NCBI GenBank assembly: GCA_003519585.1
Contig: DOWL01000219.1
Span: forward strand, 1-14,961
DNA from: Nocardioides sp.
GTDB lineage: Bacteria > Actinomycetota > Actinomycetes > Propionibacteriales > Nocardioidaceae
Direction of reading: 5' to 3'
DNA length: 14,961 nucleotides
Shown: positions 1 to 13,407 of the stretch, one piece after another
How the letters are laid out: each line of letters begins with the position of its first letter
How positions within the stretch are numbered: the stretch's first letter is position 1
Made by a program: the position numbers and the translations under genes
The notes under the pieces: model-generated
The model's database searches: none
Told to the model about the DNA's origin: nothing
The model's input: only the letters and a program-made list of their open reading frames with translations

Positions 1-325
1 CGGGCACACCGGCAGCGGCGAGGGCGTCGGAGAGCGCCCGGTGCAGGGTCGTCCGTCGGACCCCGCGACCGTCACCGTGCCGGAACGGCGCCTCCGCCGT
101 ACGCCCGTTACCGAGGTAGCGGATCCCGGACAGTCGGTGGCCGTCCGGGTCGATACCGAGACCGGCGAGGTCGGCCACGGCTCCGGGCATCAGCCCTTCT
201 CCGCAGGCCTTGTCGACCGGTCCCGGCCGGGGTTCGCGCACGACCACGTCGAGTCCCGCGCGCGCGGCGTAGAGCGCCGTCGCCAGCCCGACCGGACCGC
301 CGCCGGCCACCACCAGGTCAGGCAT
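1..325 (-). CDS. FAD-dependent oxidoreductase/monooxygenase, N-terminal part (cut by window edge)
   Basis: Only the first 108 residues are present; the gene runs off the left edge. Seen: the protein starts [20 protein letters not shown], an N-terminal Rossmann fold with the dinucleotide motif GGGPVG at residues 8-13. A DKACGEGLMP segment follows at about residues 39-48, which is typical of the geranylgeranyl-reductase/aromatic hydroxylase flavoproteins. The ATG overlaps the 3' end of the methyltransferase gene by 8 bp, so it is the last visible gene of the operon. Known: srsC and agqC, next to type III PKS genes, encode FAD monooxygenases that hydroxylate the resorcinol ring to the hydroquinone level. 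Inference: this gene does the same for the product of the neighbouring PKS. The substrate-binding half is not visible, so a reductase is not excluded. Confidence 0.85.
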   Translation of the reverse strand, partial: MPDLVVAGGGPVGLATALYAARAGLDVVVREPRPGPVDKACGEGLMPGAVADLAGLGIDPDGHRLSGIRYLGNGRTAEAPFRHGDGRGVRRTTLHRALSDALAAAGVP

Positions 326-845
326 CAGCGAGAAGCCCCGACAGTGCAGCATTCTCGACACGCACCCGGACGCCGAGCAGCACGGCGTTGAGCACGGTGA
401 ACACCACGGCGGTGATCCAGCAGGCGTGCACCAGGGGCAGCGCGATGCCCTCCACGACGACCGCGACGTAGTTGGGATGCCGCATCAGCGCGTAGGGACC
501 CCGCCGCACCGGTGCGAGGCCGGGCACGATGATCACCCGGGTGTTCCACTGCCGACCCAGGGTCGCGATGCACCACCACCGCAGCGCCTGCGTGAGCACG
601 ACGACGATCAGCATCGACCAGGCCAACGCCGAGGGGACGTCGGGCCGGCGCACGTACGCCTCGACCAGCGCACCCACCAGCAGCCCGGTGTGCAGGACCA
701 CCATGACCGGATAGTGCGAGAAGCCGGTCTCGACCCCGCCGCGCGCGAAGGACCACGCGGCGTTGCGCTTGGAGACGACCAGCTCGGCCAGCCGCTCGAG
801 GCCCACGAGGACGACGAGGACGGTGAACGCCGTCAGCGAGGTCAT
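318..845 (-). CDS. Isoprenylcysteine carboxyl methyltransferase-family protein (putative polyketide O-methyltransferase)
   Basis: This 175-aa integral membrane protein has hydrophobic segments near residues 4-20, 46-66, 74-90 and 128-160. The family signature is clear: [11 protein letters not shown] near residues 18-28, then [12 protein letters not shown] at about 116-127, the S-adenosylmethionine-binding part of the ICMT fold. The ATG at 845 overlaps the stop of the type III PKS in an ATGA arrangement, which fixes the start; a longer open frame upstream is only a shadow of the PKS gene. Known: srsB/agqB-type and Bacillus bpsB-type members sit beside type III PKS genes and methylate the phenolic or pyrone hydroxyl of the polyketide. 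Inference: it makes the methoxy group of the alkylphenol produced here, at the membrane where the lipid-like substrate resides. Confidence 0.9.
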
Positions 846-1915
846 CGCGCGGCCGCCTGGAGCAGCACCAGTTCGGAGCAGAACCCGGGCCCCATCGCCA
901 GCATCAGCCCGTGGCTGCCCGGGGGCGGTGGCCGCTCGCGCAGCGTGTCCTCCAGGACATGCAGCACCGAGGCCGACGACAGGTTGCCGATCTGCGCCAG
1001 CGAGCGCCGGGTCAACGAGACCGCCTCGGGATCGAGCCCGAGCGTGGTCTCCAGCGCCTCGATCACCTTCGGCCCGCCGGGGTGGCAGACCCACCAGCCG
1101 ATGTCACTGCGGCCCAGCCCGTGGTCGGCCAGGAAGCCATCGACGTCCTCCCGCACATAGCGCCCGATGACGGCCGGCACCTCCGCGTCGAGCACGATCC
1201 GCAGCCCGGTCGAGCCGACGTCGAACCCCATCACCCGTTCGGAGTCCGGGTAGAGCCGCGAGCGGGTGGCCAGCACCTGCACTGAGCCCGGGCCGCGACC
1301 CCGGCGATCGCCGGCCGCGACGACACACGACGCGCCGTCGCCGAACAGCCCCGACGCGACCAGGTTGGGCACCGACACGTCGTCGCGCTGCACGGTGAGC
1401 GAGCACAGCTCCACCGCGACCAGCGCCGCGACCTCGTCGGGGTGCCCGGTGAGGTAGTCGTGCAGCCGAGCCACCCCCGCCGCGCCGGCGACGCAGCCGA
1501 GCCCGACCAACGGCACCCGCTTCACGTCCGGACGCAGCCCGACCAGCGCCGCGATCCGCGCGTCGAGGGAGGGTACGGCGAGCCCGGTCACGGTCGCCGA
1601 CACGATCAGGTCGACGTCGGACGGCGTGAGGTCCGCGGCCTTGAGCGCATCCTGCAGCGCCCGCGCCCCGAGCTCCACCGCGTGCTCGATGAACAGGTCG
1701 TTGGCCGCGGTGAAGCCGTCCAGTTCGGCGTACCGATCCAGCGGCAGCACGGTGTGTCGGAACTCGACCCCGGCGTTGGCGTGAAACCGACGCAGCAGCC
1801 GCTCGTCGAAGCCCCCACCACCCGCGATGAAGCCGGCGAACGCATCGGTGATCTCGGCCTGGGTGTGGCGGTACGCCGGCAAAGCGCCGCGCACGGTCAG
1901 GATCTGCATCGACAT
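842..1915 (-). CDS. Type III polyketide synthase (alkylresorcinol/alkylpyrone synthase-like)
   Basis: At 357 aa it is close to the usual length of chalcone-synthase-fold enzymes. The catalytic triad is complete: Cys141 in [10 protein letters not shown], His278 in [11 protein letters not shown] and Asn311 in [11 protein letters not shown]. The C-terminal GPGF loop is present ([12 protein letters not shown], about residues 341-352). ELCSLTVQ after the active-site Cys resembles bacterial long-chain starter enzymes of the SrsA type. The enzyme would condense a fatty acyl-CoA (or acyl-ACP) with malonyl-CoA into an alkylresorcinol or alkylpyrone in the cytosol. Its ATG overlaps the reductase stop by one base (TGATG). 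A second in-frame ATG lies two codons downstream, so the exact start is uncertain by 2 residues. The starter length and the cyclisation type cannot be read from the sequence; the neighbours favour a resorcinol. Confidence 0.95.
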
Positions 1916-3054
1916 CAGCGGTCTCCCTTCAGTCCCGTGACGGCCTTGCGACCGAGGCCGGCGACCAGGCCGCGCACCAACCGGCCGGAGATCCGTCCGT
2001 CTCCCAGCCCGAGCTCGACGAGCTCGTCAAAGACTCTTCGGTCGCGCCGCGCCACCCGGATGCCGCCGTCGACGATCACGGCGTGCTCGGCGAGCCGGGA
2101 GGCCACGAAGGTGTGCTTGAGATGGGTCCCGAGCTGCTTCCTGACGGCATGGCGGTGCAGTGCCCCCGGGTCGGTGTGCTCACGCAGGGCGCGGACCGCC
2201 GAACGGCCGGCGGCGATGCCGGTCGCGATCGCGTAGTAGATACCCTCGCCGGTCATCGGGTTGATCAGCCCCGCCGCGTCTCCAGCGAGCAGGACCCGCC
2301 CGTCCGGTTGATGCCAGCGCCAGCCGGACAGGGGCAGGTGGTGGCCCTTCCAGTGTTCGCCCGCCTCGACCGAGCCGGGCAACAACAGTTCGAGCTGGTC
2401 GAGCAGCAGCGCCCGGGAGGGCGGAGCATCGGTGCCTGGAGACGGGAGCAGCTCGCCGTAGCCCACGTTGGACAGCCCGTCGCCCCGGTCGAAGGCCCAG
2501 GCGTACGCCGGCTGCCGGCGATCGCCGTACCGGATCACTTGAGTCCCGCGCCGACCCGCCGGAGTCGGCGCGTAGCCGCGGATCGCGATCGCACGACGTC
2601 CGTACGGCAGTCCGAGGTGTTGGCGGAGCACCGAGTGCGCGCCGTCGGCACCGACCACGACGGCCGCGTCGGGCAGTTGGTCGACCGAGGTGACCCGTTG
2701 GCGACGGAACGTGGCGCCGCGATCGACCGCCCGCTCGACCAGTCGGGCGTCGAAGACCTCACGCGGGATCACGTAGACGGGACGGGCCATCGTGCGGGCC
2801 ACCGACTGCTCTCCCCGGGCCAGCTCCAGCCGGGTGAGCGGCGTCCACCCGGACTCGACGCCGGTCACCCCGATGGCTGCGAGCTGTTCGAAGCAGTGCG
2901 GTGCGATGCCGTCGCCACAGGACTTGTCGCGCGGGAAGTCGGCGCGGTCGAGCAGCAGCACTCGCAGTGACGGCTCCGCGTGGAGGGCCGCCAGCGCGGC
3001 GGAGGCGCCCGCCGGACCGGCGCCCACGACGACGAGGTCCCAGGACTCGTTCAC
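1915..3054 (-). CDS. Geranylgeranyl reductase-family FAD oxidoreductase
   Basis: This 379-aa protein begins with GTG overlapping the UbiA stop (GTGA), which fixes the start. An N-terminal FAD site ([15 protein letters not shown], about residues 6-20) is followed by [10 protein letters not shown] (41-50), the family hallmark, and by the FAD-binding motif [18 protein letters not shown] in the second half. Members of this family saturate double bonds of prenyl chains. Known: the product of the A. missouriensis agq cluster carries a dihydrogeranyl ether, which needs such a reduction. Inference: this enzyme reduces one double bond of the geranyl (or longer) group before or after transfer by the adjacent UbiA protein. 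It could instead be a hydroxylase of the same flavoprotein group, but the CGDGI motif and the prenyltransferase neighbour favour a reductase. Confidence 0.88.
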
Positions 3055-3851
3055 TTGACCCACACCAACATGGCCACGTCGACCAACGCCATCGCGATCG
3101 CGGCCCGGAACGGCGCCCGGCCGTGAGCCAGCAGCGCGACCGCCGCCAAGCCGGCGGTGAGCAGGAGCGCAAGGGCCGCGACGAGTCCGGACTCGACCGG
3201 CGCACCGAAGACGATCACGAGCGCCGCGGCGACCAGGACCGCGGCCGCGGCGACCTGGCTCCCGCGAGCGCCGAGCCGGTGCGGCAGTCCGCGGACGCCG
3301 GTGGCCGCGTCGTCGCTCAGATCGGGCAGCACGTTGACGAAATGCGCTCCGACCCCGAGCAGTGCGCCCGCGAGCGGCAACCACAGCGGCGGCAGCGCGT
3401 CAGGGTTGTCGGTGAGCGACACGAAGACCGGGAGGCCGCCGAAGGCGACGGCGTACGGCACCCACGACCACGGCGTCGACTTGAACCCCAGGTTGTAGGC
3501 CCACCCCGCGGCCACGCACACCAGTTGCACGAGCCCGGCCAGGAGGCCGCAGGCCAGCGAGAGCGGGACGGTGGCGACCACGGCGAGCGCACAGGCGATC
3601 CGCACGGCTCGTTCACTGATCCGGCCCTCGGCCAGCGGCTTGTCTGTGCGGCCTACCACTCGGTCACGAGCGAGGTCGACCAGGTCGTTGCTCCACCCGA
3701 TGGAGAGCTGACCCGTCAGCACGGCGGCTACCACCAGCGTCACCTCACCGGGACCCAGGCCGACGGCGACGCCGAGCAGCCCGGCGAGCACCGTGACCGC
3801 GAACGCGGGGCCGGGGTGAGCGGCCCCGAGGAGAGCGACGGCCTTAGGCAT
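3051..3851 (-). CDS. UbiA-family membrane prenyltransferase
   Basis: This 266-aa polytopic protein has about eight hydrophobic segments. The first Asp-rich motif is NDLVDLARD (N55, D56, D59, D63), matching NDxxDxxxD, which binds the Mg-prenyl diphosphate. The second is NVLPDLSDDAATG (about 173-185). YNLGFKSTPWSWVPYA in mid-protein is also typical of actinobacterial members. I chose ATG at 3851 rather than the adjacent GTG at 3854 because a GAGG ribosome binding site lies 7 bases upstream of it. The gene follows the sucrase/ferredoxin-like gene by 9 bp and overlaps the reductase by 4 bp. Inference: it attaches a geranyl-type chain to the methoxyhydroquinone (O-prenylation in agqD, or possibly C-prenylation). 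A menaquinone-type role is less likely in this context. Confidence 0.92.
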   Translation of the reverse strand: MPKAVALLGAAHPGPAFAVTVLAGLLGVAVGLGPGEVTLVVAAVLTGQLSIGWSNDLVDLARDRVVGRTDKPLAEGRISERAVRIACALAVVATVPLSLACGLLAGLVQLVCVAAGWAYNLGFKSTPWSWVPYAVAFGGLPVFVSLTDNPDALPPLWLPLAGALLGVGAHFVNVLPDLSDDAATGVRGLPHRLGARGSQVAAAAVLVAAALVIVFGAPVESGLVAALALLLTAGLAAVALLAHGRAPFRAAIAMALVDVAMLVWVK

Positions 3852-3860
3852 CACGAGGCC

Positions 3861-5908: not shown

Positions 5909-6111
5909 GAGGCGTCCCCGTCGGTGCCGTCGGCGTCGCCGCCGTCGCCGTCGGTTGCGTCGGTCGCGTCGCCATCGGTGCCGTCGGCGTCGCCGCCGTC
6001 AGTGCCATCCGCGTCCCCACCGTCGGTGCCGTCGGCATCACCGCCACCGAGGTCACCACCGCCGCCCGGCGTGGTGGTCATGTCGTCGTCGTCGAGCACG
6101 TCGTCGCTCAT
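5905..6111 (-). CDS. 68-aa Asp/Gly/Thr-rich repeat peptide (possible oxygenase substrate or acidic Ca-binding-type peptide)
   Basis: I do not recognise a named family. The peptide starts MSDDVLDDDDMTTTPGGGG and then carries GGDADGTD three times in tandem (residues 23-46) and once more at 57-64, ending GDAS. It has no Lys, Arg or His and only a few hydrophobic residues, so it should be extremely acidic, soluble and probably disordered. There is no signal peptide or membrane segment. ATG at 6111 is supported by a near-perfect ribosome binding site (GGAGGA, 3 bases upstream). The repeat units differ at many third codon positions but not in amino acids, which argues for a real, selected protein. 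Its stop overlaps the oxygenase CTG. DxDG spacing resembles EF-hand/dockerin loops, so metal binding is an alternative to being a modified precursor. Function unknown. Confidence 0.82.
   Translation of the reverse strand: MSDDVLDDDDMTTTPGGGGDLGGGDADGTDGGDADGTDGGDADGTDGDATDATDGDGGDADGTDGDAS
5920..6045 (-). repeat. 24-bp coding repeats (GGDADGTD units) in the acidic peptide gene
   Basis: Three tandem 24-bp units occupy 5974-6045 and a fourth lies at 5920-5943. Each encodes Gly-Gly-Asp-Ala-Asp-Gly-Thr-Asp. Units 1 and 2 differ at six of eight third codon positions with no amino-acid change; units 3 and 4 are almost identical at DNA level. The repeats are therefore conserved as protein, not just as fresh DNA slippage. 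Confidence 0.85.
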
Positions 6112-9667: not shown

Positions 9668-10846
9668 CTAGGCGTGAACGGGGCGACCGGCCACCCAGGT
9701 CCCCGCGACCAGGGGTACGCCGGGCCGGTAGGCCAGGTGGAGGTACGACGGGGCATCGAGAAGCGCCAGATCCGCCCGGGCGCCCACCGCGAGCCGGCCG
9801 ACGTCCTCGCGCAGCAGCGCGCGCGCTCCGCCGTACGTCGCCGCGTGCACGGCCTCGGCGGGGGTCATCCCCATCTCGCGCACCGCGACCGCGATGCAGA
9901 ACGGCACCGAGCTGGTGAACGACGACCCCGGGTTGCAGTCGCTGGCCAGCGCCACCGTCACGCCCGCGTCGAGCAGCTGCCGGGCGTCCGGATAGGGCTG
10001 GCGGGTCGAGAACTCCACCCCGGGAAGCAGAGTGGCCACGGTGCCCGAGTCGCTCAGAGCGTCCACGTCGCCGTCAGTGAGGTAGGTGCAGTGGTCGACC
10101 GCGGCGAGGCCGAGCTCAGCCGCGAGCAGGATTCCCGGCCCCGGGCCGAGCTGGCTGGCGTGCAGCCGCCCCGCGAGACCGTGCGCCGCGCCGGCCGCCA
10201 GCACCGCGCGAGCCTGGTCGACGTCGAAGGCGCCCCGCTCACAGAAGGCGTCGATCCACCGGGCGTACGGCGCCGCGGCCTCGAGCATCGGGCCGGTGAC
10301 CAGCTCGACGTAGCCGGCCGGATCCTCGGCGTACTCCGCCGGCACGACGTGCGCCCCGAGGAAGGTGGTCTCGTCGGTGAACTGGCGCGCCACGGCCAGG
10401 CTGCGCGCCTCGTCGTGCACGGTCAGGCCGTAGCCGCTCTTGATCTCGACGGTCGTCGTGCCCTGGCGGGTCATCTCCTGCACCAGCCGGGCTACGTGGG
10501 CCGTGAGCTGTTCGTCGGTGGCGGCGCGGGTCGCTGCCACGGTCGTGCGGATCCCGCCGGCGGCGTACGACTCACCGGCCATCCGGGCCGCGAACTCGCG
10601 CGCCCGGTCGCCGGCGAAGACCAGGTGGCTGTGGCTGTCGACGAACCCCGGCAGCACCGCTCGGCCACCCGCGTCGAACACCTCGTCGGCGGCCGGCGCC
10701 TCGGCCGCCGGGCCGACCCACGCGACCCGGGTGCCCTCGACCACCAGCGCCGCGTCGGTGCGGATGCCGAGCAGATCGTCGGCCTCGGTCGACGGTTCGG
10801 GGTCGTTGGTAACGAGCTCGCCGATGTTCGTGATCAGGACTGCCAC
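9668..10846 (-). CDS. hutI: Imidazolonepropionase
   Basis: This 392-aa amidohydrolase-fold enzyme opens the ring of 4-imidazolone-5-propanoate to N-formimino-L-glutamate, the third step of histidine degradation. Metal and substrate motifs are clear: HSH at 72-74 ([11 protein letters not shown]), [11 protein letters not shown] (98-107), EIKSGYGL (134-141), [11 protein letters not shown] (162-172), DAFCERGAF (199-207), His229 in GRLHASQ, His252 in DHCTY and Asp303 in ASDCNPGSS. The start is GTG at 10846 with GGAG 4 bases upstream. It overlaps the hutF end by 13 bp, so the two are translationally coupled. The stop is TAG, followed by a possible stem-loop, making this the last gene of the hut operon. 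Confidence 0.97.
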
Positions 10847-12090
10847 AGTGCTCCGATCGCCTCGTCGAGCTCGCGCCCGATCTCCTCCTCGTCACCGCGG
10901 ACATGGACGACGCGCCCGCCCGCGACGACCTGCGTGACGTCCGCCGCCGTGGCGGCGAACACGGCCGTGTGCTCGTCGGCACCGGTGCCCGCGGTCCGCA
11001 GGCTGGCCGTGTCGAGGGTGACCAGATCGGCGGGTGCACCGACCTCGATCCGCCCCGTGGTACCGACCGCCAGCAGTTCGGCGGCGGTCCAGTGCCCTCG
11101 CTCGCCGGTCGCGAGCCGTTCGTCCATCTCGAGGGCGCGTAGCTCCTCGAACGGGTCGACCACCGCATGGCTGTCGCTGCCGATGGTGATCCGGCAGCCG
11201 GCCTCGTGGAGCCGTCGGGCCGGGCCGATGCCGTCGGCCAGGTCGCGCTCGGTGGTCGGGGTGATGCAGACGGTCGTGCCGGTGGTCCCCAGCAGCTCGA
11301 CGTCGTCGTCGGTGAGGTGGGTCGCGTGCACGACGGTCGTGTCCGGGCCGAGCAGGTCGGCCTCGTGCAGCAGCCGGGTCGGGGTGACGCCGTACGCCGC
11401 GAGGCAGGCCTGGTTCTCGGCCACCTGTTCGGAGAGGTGCACGTGCAACGTCGTTCGGCCGCGAAAGGTCGCCAGTTGATCGCGCGGCACCGCGCGCACA
11501 GAGTGGATCGCCGCCGGGCCGGCGCCGGCGCGCTTGGCCCAGGTCTCCGCGTCCCCGTCCGAGTAGCGCCGTTGCACGCCCTCCGGCGGCGCGCCGAAGC
11601 CGCTGCTGACGTAGCAGGTGTCGAGCAGCGTGATCCTGATCCCCGCCTGCCGGGCCGCGTCCTCCAGTGCGTGCCGCATCGCCAGCGGGTCGTCGTACGC
11701 CGTGCCGTCGGGCTGGTGATGCAGGTAGTGGAACTCCGTCACCGACGTGTAGCCCGCCGCCACCATCTCGCGATAGGTCGCCCGCGCCAGGGCCAGGTAG
11801 CTCTCCGGCGTCAGCTGCTCGGCGACGGCGTACATCTGGTCGCGCCAGGTCCAGAACGTCCCCCGCTCGCGCTGCGTACGTCCGCGCAGGGCTCGATGGA
11901 ACGCGTGGCTGTGGTCGTTGCTGAGGCCGGGGAGAGTCAGCCCGGCGAGGCGGGGAGCGGGCGAGTTGGCTATGCCGGGTGTGACCTGAGTGAATCGGCC
12001 GTCCTCGATCTCGACCAGGACGTCGTCGCGGACGGCACCGGCGACCCAGGCTCGCCCCAGGAGGTACGCCGACCTCGCGGTGGAGGTCAT
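10834..12090 (-). CDS. hutF: Formimidoylglutamate deiminase
   Basis: This 418-aa amidohydrolase converts N-formimino-L-glutamate to N-formyl-L-glutamate plus ammonia, the branch of histidine degradation that avoids formamide. Seen: [16 protein letters not shown] (metal His60 and His62), [11 protein letters not shown] (77-87), HVHLSEQ (His216/His218, Glu221), VVHATHL (His255/His258) and [15 protein letters not shown] with Asp306. The WTWRDQMY segment and FHRALRG separate HutF from other deaminases. ATG at 12090 overlaps the amidohydrolase stop (ATGA). HutF presence implies that a formylglutamate-hydrolysing enzyme is needed downstream in the pathway, which fits the M20 neighbour. Confidence 0.96.
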
Positions 12091-13352
12091 GTGGCCAGCC
12101 TCTTGAGCGTCTCGGCCAGCGCGTGGACGCCGGCCAGGCAGTCGGGCAGCTCGGCGAACTCGGTGGGCGAGTGCGAGACGCCTGTCGGGTTGCGTACGAA
12201 GAGCATCGCGGTCGGAATCCCTTGTGCAGAAAGGATTCCGGCGTCGTGTCCGGCCGCGGTCGGGATGATCGGCCAGTCGCCTTCCTCGTGGTCGGCGGCG
12301 ATCCGCGCTGTCAGCGACGGGTCGAAGGCCACCGCGCCGGACACCGACTCGGCCGTCACCGACACCGACGTCCCGTCGCGCTCGGCGCGCTCGGTCGCCT
12401 GCCGGGTCACGGTCTCCACGAGCTCGGCGAGCGCGGACTCGGAGGAGCAGCGCGCATCCAGCCAGGCCAGCACCTGGGAGGGCACGGCGTTGGTGCCGTT
12501 GGGCGTGACCTCGAGGCGGCCGAACGTCGCCCGCTCGTCGGCCAGCCGGGCCTGCTTGTTCGCGGCCAGCGCGGTCATGGCGTAGGTGAGCATCGGGTCG
12601 GCGCGGTCCTCCATCCGGGTGGTCCCGGCGTGGTTGGCCTGGCCGCCGAAGTCGAAGCGGTAGCGCCCGTGCGGCCAGATCTCACTGGCCACCCCGACCG
12701 CCGCGCCGCGGTCGACCAGGTCGCGGCCCTGCTCGACGTGCAGCTCGACGAACGTCTCGACGCCGGCCAGCAGCCCCGGCCCGCCTCCCTCGACGACCTC
12801 CTCCAGCGCGACACCGTCCCGGTCGCGCAGCACCCTGGCCCGATCCCAGTCGATCGCCCCCATGGCGAGCCGCGACCCGAGGCAGGCCAGCCCGAACCGC
12901 GAGCCTTCCTCCTCGACGAACACCGATACCCCGATCGGCCGCGTCGGCCGTACCCCCCGCGCGCGCAACTCGTCGACGGCCGCCAGCGCCGAGACCACCC
13001 CCAGCGGCCCGTCGTACGCACCCCCGTCGAGCACCGAGTCGAGGTGCGAGCCGGTGAGCACGGCCCCGGTCCGGGGTAGTCCGTGACCTACGGGCCCCTG
13101 TTTGTCCACATGAGGGGCCCAAACGTCACGGACTACCGCACCGTTGTCCACAGGCGCCGGGTCCCACCACGCGACCAGGTTGCCGAAGTCGTCGGCTTCC
13201 AGGGTCAGCCCACGGGCCTCTGTTTGACCGCGGAACCAGTCGGCGAGCTCACGTTCGGGTTGGGTGAAGGGCTGGCGGAAGTAGCCGCCCGACGTGCTCG
13301 ACCGGCCGATCGGCGCCAGGTCGGACCACATCCGCTCGAAGTCATCGGGCAC
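12087..13352 (-). CDS. M20-family amidohydrolase, allantoate amidohydrolase-like (likely N-formylglutamate deformylase of the hut operon)
   Basis: The call gives 421 aa, slightly long for this family. Metal and catalytic motifs: GSHLDSVLDGGAYDGPLGVV (His103, Asp105, Asp114), VFVEEEGSRFG (Glu148/149) and FVELHVEQG (His205); GGQANHAGTTRM and the AGHDAG segment near the C-terminus are typical of allantoate and N-carbamoyl-amino-acid hydrolases. GTG at 13352 is chosen because family-like sequence (DDFERMWSDLAPIGRSS) starts there; GTG at 13394 is possible. Known: such genes often sit with hutF and hutI in actinobacteria. Inference: it hydrolyses N-formylglutamate, replacing HutG. Oddity: residues 73-92, between the N-terminal strand and the HLDSV motif, are encoded by an inserted palindromic element with 10 of 20 codons ending in A or T; active-site residues are intact. 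Confidence 0.9.
   Translation of the reverse strand: MPDDFERMWSDLAPIGRSSTSGGYFRQPFTQPERELADWFRGQTEARGLTLEADDFGNLVAWWDPAPVDNGAVVRDVWAPHVDKQGPVGHGLPRTGAVLTGSHLDSVLDGGAYDGPLGVVSALAAVDELRARGVRPTRPIGVSVFVEEEGSRFGLACLGSRLAMGAIDWDRARVLRDRDGVALEEVVEGGGPGLLAGVETFVELHVEQGRDLVDRGAAVGVASEIWPHGRYRFDFGGQANHAGTTRMEDRADPMLTYAMTALAANKQARLADERATFGRLEVTPNGTNAVPSQVLAWLDARCSSESALAELVETVTRQATERAERDGTSVSVTAESVSGAVAFDPSLTARIAADHEEGDWPIIPTAAGHDAGILSAQGIPTAMLFVRNPTGVSHSPTEFAELPDCLAGVHALAETLKRLAT
13075..13137. repeat. 63-bp palindromic element inserted in frame in the amidohydrolase gene
   Basis: Perfect 13-bp inverted arms, GGTAGTCCGTGAC (13075-13087) and GTCACGGACTACC (13125-13137), enclose a second perfect 7-bp pair, GGGCCCC (13092-13098) and GGGGCCC (13114-13120), with a 4x4 internal loop and a 15-base terminal loop. 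Total length is 63 bp, exactly 21 codons, with no stop in the coding frame. Half of the encoded codons end in A or T while the flanking gene is almost all G/C. This looks like a mobile or dispersed palindromic repeat (REP/MITE-like, compare Rickettsia palindromic elements) that keeps the host frame open. Mobility is an inference because only one copy is in the window. Confidence 0.75.
13102..13152 (+). other. Two DnaA-box-like sites (TTGTCCACA)
   Basis: TTGTCCACA occurs at 13102-13110, in the loop of the palindromic element, and again at 13144-13152, just outside it, in the same orientation and 42 bp apart. TTGTCCACA is the preferred actinobacterial DnaA box. Whether DnaA binds here is unknown; two boxes inside a metabolic gene do not make an origin. 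Confidence 0.4.
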
Positions 13353-13407
13353 GTCCCCATCCAACGCAGCAGCGCGGCCCGGCGCCACCGCCACGCGGAG
13401 TACGAGG

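Follow-up and report, generated by a model that had tools for sequence, protein, structure and literature searches.

The 14,961-nt stretch of Nocardioides sp. DNA analysed here (contig DOWL01000219.1 of assembly GCA_003519585.1, hereafter the window) carries on its reverse strand an amidohydrolase gene whose coding sequence is interrupted, without loss of frame, by a 63-bp palindrome. The host gene was assigned on the basis of Pfam PF01546, its homologues and the solved relatives 3n5f and 1z2l. The features concerned are the following:

12087..13394, reverse strand: host gene, encoding an M20-family amidohydrolase of the N-carbamoyl-L-amino-acid hydrolase/allantoate amidohydrolase type, 435 residues
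13075..13137, no strand: palindromic element, 63 bp, made up of a 59-bp TAGTCC...GGACTA unit and a paired GG/CC outside it
13077..13097, no strand: first half-site, 21 nt, set by comparison with the family (pairing and identity profiles)
13098..13114, no strand: spacer, 17 bp, in the family of nearly constant length and free sequence
13115..13135, no strand: second half-site, inverted, 21 nt, set by inverted-repeat search and the family profiles

The two arms of the palindrome (13075-13099 and 13113-13137, 25 nt each) are complementary at 22 of 25 positions (88%) and separated by 13 nt, and the RNA fold of the element reaches -47.7 kcal/mol (z -6.1), a value equalled by none of 200 shuffles. 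The ends pair as GGTAG with CTACC, that is, GTAG with CTAC. Thus, the hairpin of the original prediction, which had been made from the letters of the window, is real; its outer perfect stem of 13 bp was also found, and the inner one, given as 7 bp, is of 8 bp (GGGCCCCT/AGGGGCCC). A palindrome detector with 18-nt arms did not report the window copy, owing to mismatches within the arms, and 3 of 100 Markov copies of the window contained some palindrome at that threshold. No Rfam match was obtained for the window. The open reading frame reads through the element without a stop, as had been claimed, and the host protein gains about 21 residues (VVRDVWAPHVDKQGPVGHGLP), located in the loop preceding TGSHLDS, in agreement with the proposed position just before the HLDSV metal motif. 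The foreign codon use of the insert was likewise borne out, with about 0.52 of its codons ending in G or C vs 0.91 elsewhere in the gene, although the codon set is approximate since the insert begins mid-codon.

The element belongs to a dispersed family. An exact scan with the pattern GTAGTCCGTGAC, a gap of 20-50 and GTCACGGACTAC, covering one genome per species (84,980 species), returned 109 copies, every one of them in Nocardioides, so the many dispersed copies by which the original prediction had hoped to recognise a repeat family do exist. A slightly wider pattern, applied to 11 such genomes, gave 3-37 copies in each and none with a reversed control pattern; the 37 copies of Nocardioides halotolerans (G007) include some with an inner stem resembling that of the window. 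When TAGTCC and GGACTA alone were fixed, 146 of 196 genomes of the genus had a match, with at most 44 in a single genome; since the reversed control yielded 0-12 per genome, low counts carry no meaning. The distance from TAGTCC to GGACTA in the 109 distinct copies is 59 nt in 81, 60 nt in 17, 58 nt in 4 and 47-50 nt in five.

Positions 1-11 of these copies are fixed by the search pattern, and identity and pairing values therefore refer to free positions only. Among the 59-mers, position 12 pairs in 96%, positions 13-16 in 58-77%, positions 17-21 in 89-98% and the middle 17 positions in 27-53%. A second sample, collected through TAGTCC alone and with chance matches left in, has 30 copies from as many genomes, 21 of the copies being 59 nt long; here, positions 7-10 pair in 100%, 15-18 in 81-95% and 19-21 in 57-71%. 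Within five genomes, identity amounts to 83-89% over half-site positions 12-21, 48-66% over the spacer and 37-53% over flanking DNA; a few pairs of copies have the middle part in common as well. The usual unit is thus of 59 bp, consisting of two half-sites that are alike within a genome and a 17-bp spacer whose length hardly changes while its sequence is free, and the family extends over the genus with genome-specific stems. Given this family, the window palindrome is not a chance structure, and the insert is almost certainly a member of this Nocardioides family, present in frame. A middle part of nearly constant length but free sequence would fit a protein dimer on double-stranded DNA, whereas an RNA or single-strand hairpin would have less reason to hold its loop length constant.

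A simple gene caller based on codon usage (coding density 0.90) was used to judge the placement of the 109 copies. Most lie outside genes: 41 between convergent genes, 23 between tandem and 9 between divergent ones, 7 at a locus edge and 25 overlapping a gene end, with only four inside genes. Twenty of the 25 overlaps involve the 3' end of the gene; in 18 of them the overlap is 4 nt long and includes the TAG of the element. Placement in the family is therefore REP-like (repetitive extragenic palindromic) and mostly extragenic, and the window copy belongs to the in-gene minority. Two of the four in-gene copies are at equivalent positions of one gene in N. terrigena and Nocardioides sp. Soil805 (L017:7148-7209 and L108:4936-4997), this being another gene, after the amidohydrolase, with a palindrome in frame; another copy lies in a proline-rich linker (L050) and the last is doubtful (L059). 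The in-gene copies read VVRD because the other two frames of this stem hit TAG or TGA. No target-site duplication of at least 4 bp was found directly beside the unit in any of the 109 copies. Comparison with empty intergenic sites at the DNA level, outside the amidohydrolase, produced no clean 0-bp junction at high identity and a single row at -1 with short matches, and the exact insertion boundaries are thus not fixed. As in the amidohydrolase loop described below, palindromes at orthologous intergenic sites differ between genomes: L027 and L002 share the stem and differ in the spacer, and L210 and L203 have flanks 85-90% identical and different stems.

The amidohydrolase loop was followed through 70 orthologue loci of the genus (L110-L179), in 63 of which the site could be located. 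Five of these loops contain a palindrome (G007, G096, G158, G161 and, decayed, G068), and the others comprise 44 loops of 8-15 residues, one of 17 and 13 of 21-47 in which no strong palindrome was seen; among the seven unlocated sites, a second detector saw a palindrome in L119 (G078). In G007, G096, G158 and G161, the palindrome in the loop is of that genome's own repeat type. At the protein level, the window protein and its best 120 hits (121 proteins) comprise 62 short loops, 51 long ones and 8 that could not be classified. As originally stated, the segment is absent from the solved relatives and from many orthologues (62 of 113). The two ends of the long inserts covary: PD is matched by Q in 13 inserts and by L or R in 4; RH by D in 7, one more being unassigned; RD by H in 6, by D in 1 and by something else in 1; and RE by NH in 4, the remaining 14 falling into small or unassigned classes, all of them defined after inspection of the data. 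On a tree built without the insert, a quick one with many weak forks, a minimum of 27 changes is needed to account for which loops are occupied or empty, and of 18 to account for the four main stem types among 37 rows; the filled P0009 and the empty P0036 are sister proteins with branches of 0.021. These comparisons show that the loop is an insertion hotspot, being in other species either empty or filled by a palindrome of another stem. A model of the whole amidohydrolase is weak (predicted local distance difference test score, pLDDT, 62) and shows no more than that residues 82-105 lie, with low confidence, in a loop flanked by strands 73-77 and 111-118. As a separate observation, the short loops of P0024, P0036, P0044 and P0072 keep a GLSR- or GLPR-like piece and look, by eye, like deletion scars of a former palindrome.

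In five genomes, palindrome copies about 1.2 kb apart flank one and the same protein. Neither Pfam nor, above cut-off, NCBIfam matches this partner protein, and a sequence search of the PDB gave nothing meaningful. From 5.8 billion proteins searched, 6,410 candidates were scored and 373 kept at E <= 0.001; among the 120 matches listed, the homologues with an organism name are from Nocardioides or Nocardioidaceae. The gene was found in 26 of 28 genomes searched, with 1-4 match rows each. With partner genes located by a hidden Markov model and palindromes by a detector with free ends and looser arms, 57 of 95 partner genes (67 genomes, 4 duplicates left out) have palindromes on both sides, 28 on one side and 10 on none. 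Stricter detectors, applied to 50 genes from 52 match rows (those of L244 and L256 each being in two pieces), found both sides occupied in 20 when TAGTCC ends were required and in 28 with free ends. As controls, 122.9 kb of amidohydrolase loci contained 4, 5 and 6 palindromes in three detector runs, four of the five in the free-ends run being the in-gene amidohydrolase copies, and 41.9 kb of shorter amidohydrolase loci contained 4. Bracketing on both sides was seen for 2 of 329 called genes of 600-1500 nt in the 109 loci chosen for their palindromes, one of the two encoding a partner protein (48% identical to P0121), and for 0 of 40 genes in the amidohydrolase loci.

The two palindromes of one partner gene share their stem, the match having a median of 0.95 and reaching at least 0.75 in 55 of 57 genes. 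For different partner genes of one genome the median is 0.55 (at least 0.75 in 2 of 29), a level no higher than the 0.56 (383 of 3,541) between partner genes from separate genomes. In comparisons between genomes, stems become more alike as protein identity rises (rho 0.40, reached in none of 300 permutations): the fraction of pairs with like stems is 0.03 below 35% identity (406 pairs) and 0.02 at 35-40% (696), then 0.06 (895) and 0.11 (883), rising to 0.25 at 50-60% (602) and 0.83 above 60% (59). This correlation is consistent with matched specificity without proving it, as common descent alone could yield it. The stem TATCTAGGGAC, read off the partner gene of L236 and beginning otherwise than TAGTCC, was found in 48 copies in 11 of 196 genomes, its reversed control in none of the 196. 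Some of these copies flank a partner gene (G057, C23:52627 and 53911 around 52710-53711). Hence, a stem taken from one partner gene predicted scattered copies elsewhere, and the prediction was borne out.

Across the class, a homologue at E <= 1e-20 is present in 57 of 296 genomes. Seventeen loci from the weaker end of the list of homologues retrieved (L331-L347), some of which may be Nocardioides, have palindromes on both sides in three cases (L333, L334 and L341, each with a shared stem of another kind), on one side in seven and on none in seven, the downstream side being cut by a contig end in two of the 17. Partner-gene matches with an in-frame stop, decayed in appearance, were noticed in G140, G205, G212, G232, G243, G280 and G297, as expected of a mobile or dispensable module. 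Overall, the specific link between the palindromes and this gene is well supported.

The partner protein is predicted to join a part like the AbiEi antitoxin to a nuclease part like Vsr and other EDxHD enzymes. The fold of its C-terminal domain was likened to Vsr and I-Bth0305I with modest scores. In 86 aligned homologues, E192, E199, D232 and D258 (numbered as in P0121) are conserved in all and H249 in 83, and from these come the residues that we take to form the E, D, H, D motif. Ten neighbour proteins of the partner gene in five loci were scanned with Pfam; they include ABC transporters, response regulators, PHO4, VanY and one protein without a match, and none is a DUF1814 nucleotidyltransferase.

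With a probability of roughly 0.7, a palindrome copy landed in a tolerant loop of the amidohydrolase, and the bracketed protein family reads and spreads such palindromes. That the partner protein binds, cuts and spreads them is our best reading of the sequence data. Each palindrome would be the double-stranded target of a homodimer of the partner protein, whose AbiEi-like part would read the two half-sites while the nuclease part would act over or beside the 17-bp spacer, an arrangement that would account for the nearly fixed length and free sequence of the latter. The protein would then drive copying or re-insertion of the short palindromes elsewhere, as a nuclease-based counterpart of the pair formed by REPs and their associated tyrosine transposases (RAYTs), and insertions would persist 3' of genes and, in rare cases, within permissive loops where the frame is kept. 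More tentatively, at somewhat less than even odds, the whole may be a selfish DNA module of a new class, in which an AbiEi-like inverted-repeat reader fused to an EDxHD-like nuclease both spreads and renews its own ~59-bp two-half-site palindromes, each gene having a private recognition sequence, so that whole dispersed sets of sites, even copies within coding sequences, would switch together when specificity changes.

The most serious alternative, though an unlikely one, is that the sites are maintained by the host: the AbiEi-like protein would use the bracketing palindromes to control its own gene, selection would keep the scattered copies as roadblock, termination or chromosome-organising sites that another mobile element had once spread, and the nuclease part would have no role in spread. 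Several observations count in its favour and weigh against spread by the partner protein, namely the half-sites more alike than the spacers, as purifying selection would give, the many copies between convergent genes or over 3' ends with the TAG in the overlap, and the binding of promoter inverted repeats by AbiEi relatives reported in PMC7319586. However, palindromes occur downstream of the partner gene too and not solely upstream, the state and stem type of the amidohydrolase site switch often on the tree, and a copy within the coding sequence of an enzyme has no evident regulatory use.

The remaining explanations fare worse. A miniature inverted-repeat remnant (MITE-like) of a TAGTCC-ended insertion sequence, moved by an ordinary transposase with the partner gene as a passenger, would suit the conserved TAGTCC/GGACTA ends, the in-frame insertion and the up to few dozen copies per genome; it is nevertheless improbable, as target-site duplications were not found, the interior varies while length is kept, and stems are cognate to the bracketed gene and not to the genome. 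Even less credit goes to the known GTAG-type REP system moved by a RAYT (Y1 HUH) transposase. The GTAG foot, the use of TAG as stop, extragenic placement and species-specific stems are all described for such REPs in PMC3733652, but there the GTAG REP unit is of 20-40 bp, against 59-63 bp here, and the GTAG of the window is paired with CTAC. Moreover, the palindromes bracket a different protein, and Y1_Tnp (PF01797, E <= 0.001) gave no match in 15 genomes, 14 of which carry TAGTCC palindromes, and a match in 1 of 196 genomes of the genus, while 5 of 14 control genomes matched. RAYT was thus rejected as the partner. The sole Y1 transposase-like match among the 196 Nocardioides genomes is at L180 (G157). 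Finally, an old native enzyme loop with drifting codons, for which the long loop of 51 of the 113 classifiable orthologues could speak, is hardly credible, and the repeat family refutes it: several of the inserts for which the DNA was read are palindromes with the stem of their own genome's repeats, and the loop is short in the other 62 orthologues and without insert in the solved relatives.

Among known systems, the family resembles GTAG/CGTC REPs and REP-RAYT pairs (REPtrons) in its dispersed copies with genome-specific stems, located 3' of genes, with the TAG of the element serving as stop and some copies within genes, and in having repeats on either side of a partner gene. For REPs, too, orthologous genes are on record as carrying different repeats at one position (recB in two Xanthomonas; PMC3733652). 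Unlike REPs, the units have a near-constant spacer length, both ends alike and no unpaired GTAG tag at one end, and unlike in REP-RAYT pairs the partner is AbiEi/EDxHD-like. The REP/RAYT pair appears to be the nearest known kind; our system, lacking two of its defining features, is kept apart, though it may work alike. The likeness to Rickettsia palindromic elements put forward in the original prediction extends to a palindrome in frame in a metabolic gene that the protein tolerates (PMC10969869), and not to a coloniser mainly of coding genes; the units are also shorter than the ~150 bp given there, and the bacterial group is another. With the homing endonuclease I-Bth0305I and Vsr, the partner shares the conserved E, D, H, D, and it may share the fold of the C-terminal domain, for which scores are modest. 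I-Bth0305I binds as a dimer a target of nearly 60 bp, close to the ~59 bp of the palindrome unit, but these enzymes lack the AbiEi-like fusion, the sites here are palindromes scattered in the host's own genome, and no intron or intein was seen. Unlike the AbiEi antitoxin of the type IV toxin-antitoxin system AbiE, the partner has a nuclease-like domain and no DUF1814 protein among the ten neighbours scanned. As anticipated, no actinobacterial counterpart of the palindrome family was found in the open-licence literature, outside which most subscription journals fall; Nocardioides, "actinobacteri" and Streptomyces go unmentioned in the main text of PMC3733652.

Elsewhere in the window, two amidohydrolase-superfamily genes, one of them imidazolonepropionase-like, adjoin the host gene (9668-13394, reverse strand), and the group is probably a histidine-use (hut) cluster. 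Genes for a type III polyketide synthase, a FAD-dependent oxidoreductase, a UbiA prenyltransferase and an ICMT-like methyltransferase stand in a row at 318-3854 (reverse strand), probably forming one small pathway. A GC-rich imperfect tandem repeat of period 54 (and 15-24) occupies 5911-6025.

Apart from the REP/RAYT case, the way in which short palindromic repeats spread is an open question. The repeats studied here, with their genome-specific stems, are linked one gene at a time to a protein family of soil bacteria that has no Pfam match, and natural pairs of site and protein are at hand for 85 of 95 partner genes. The model leads us to expect, in the organism of the window, a partner gene flanked on both sides by palindromes that have a TAGTCCGTGACG-type stem. 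If the pairing is functional, REP-like repeats would have a second enzyme, unrelated to the first, long DNA-recognition specificities could be read as a set from sequence, and the amidohydrolase would exemplify an enzyme loop made into a recurrent landing site by in-frame insertion.
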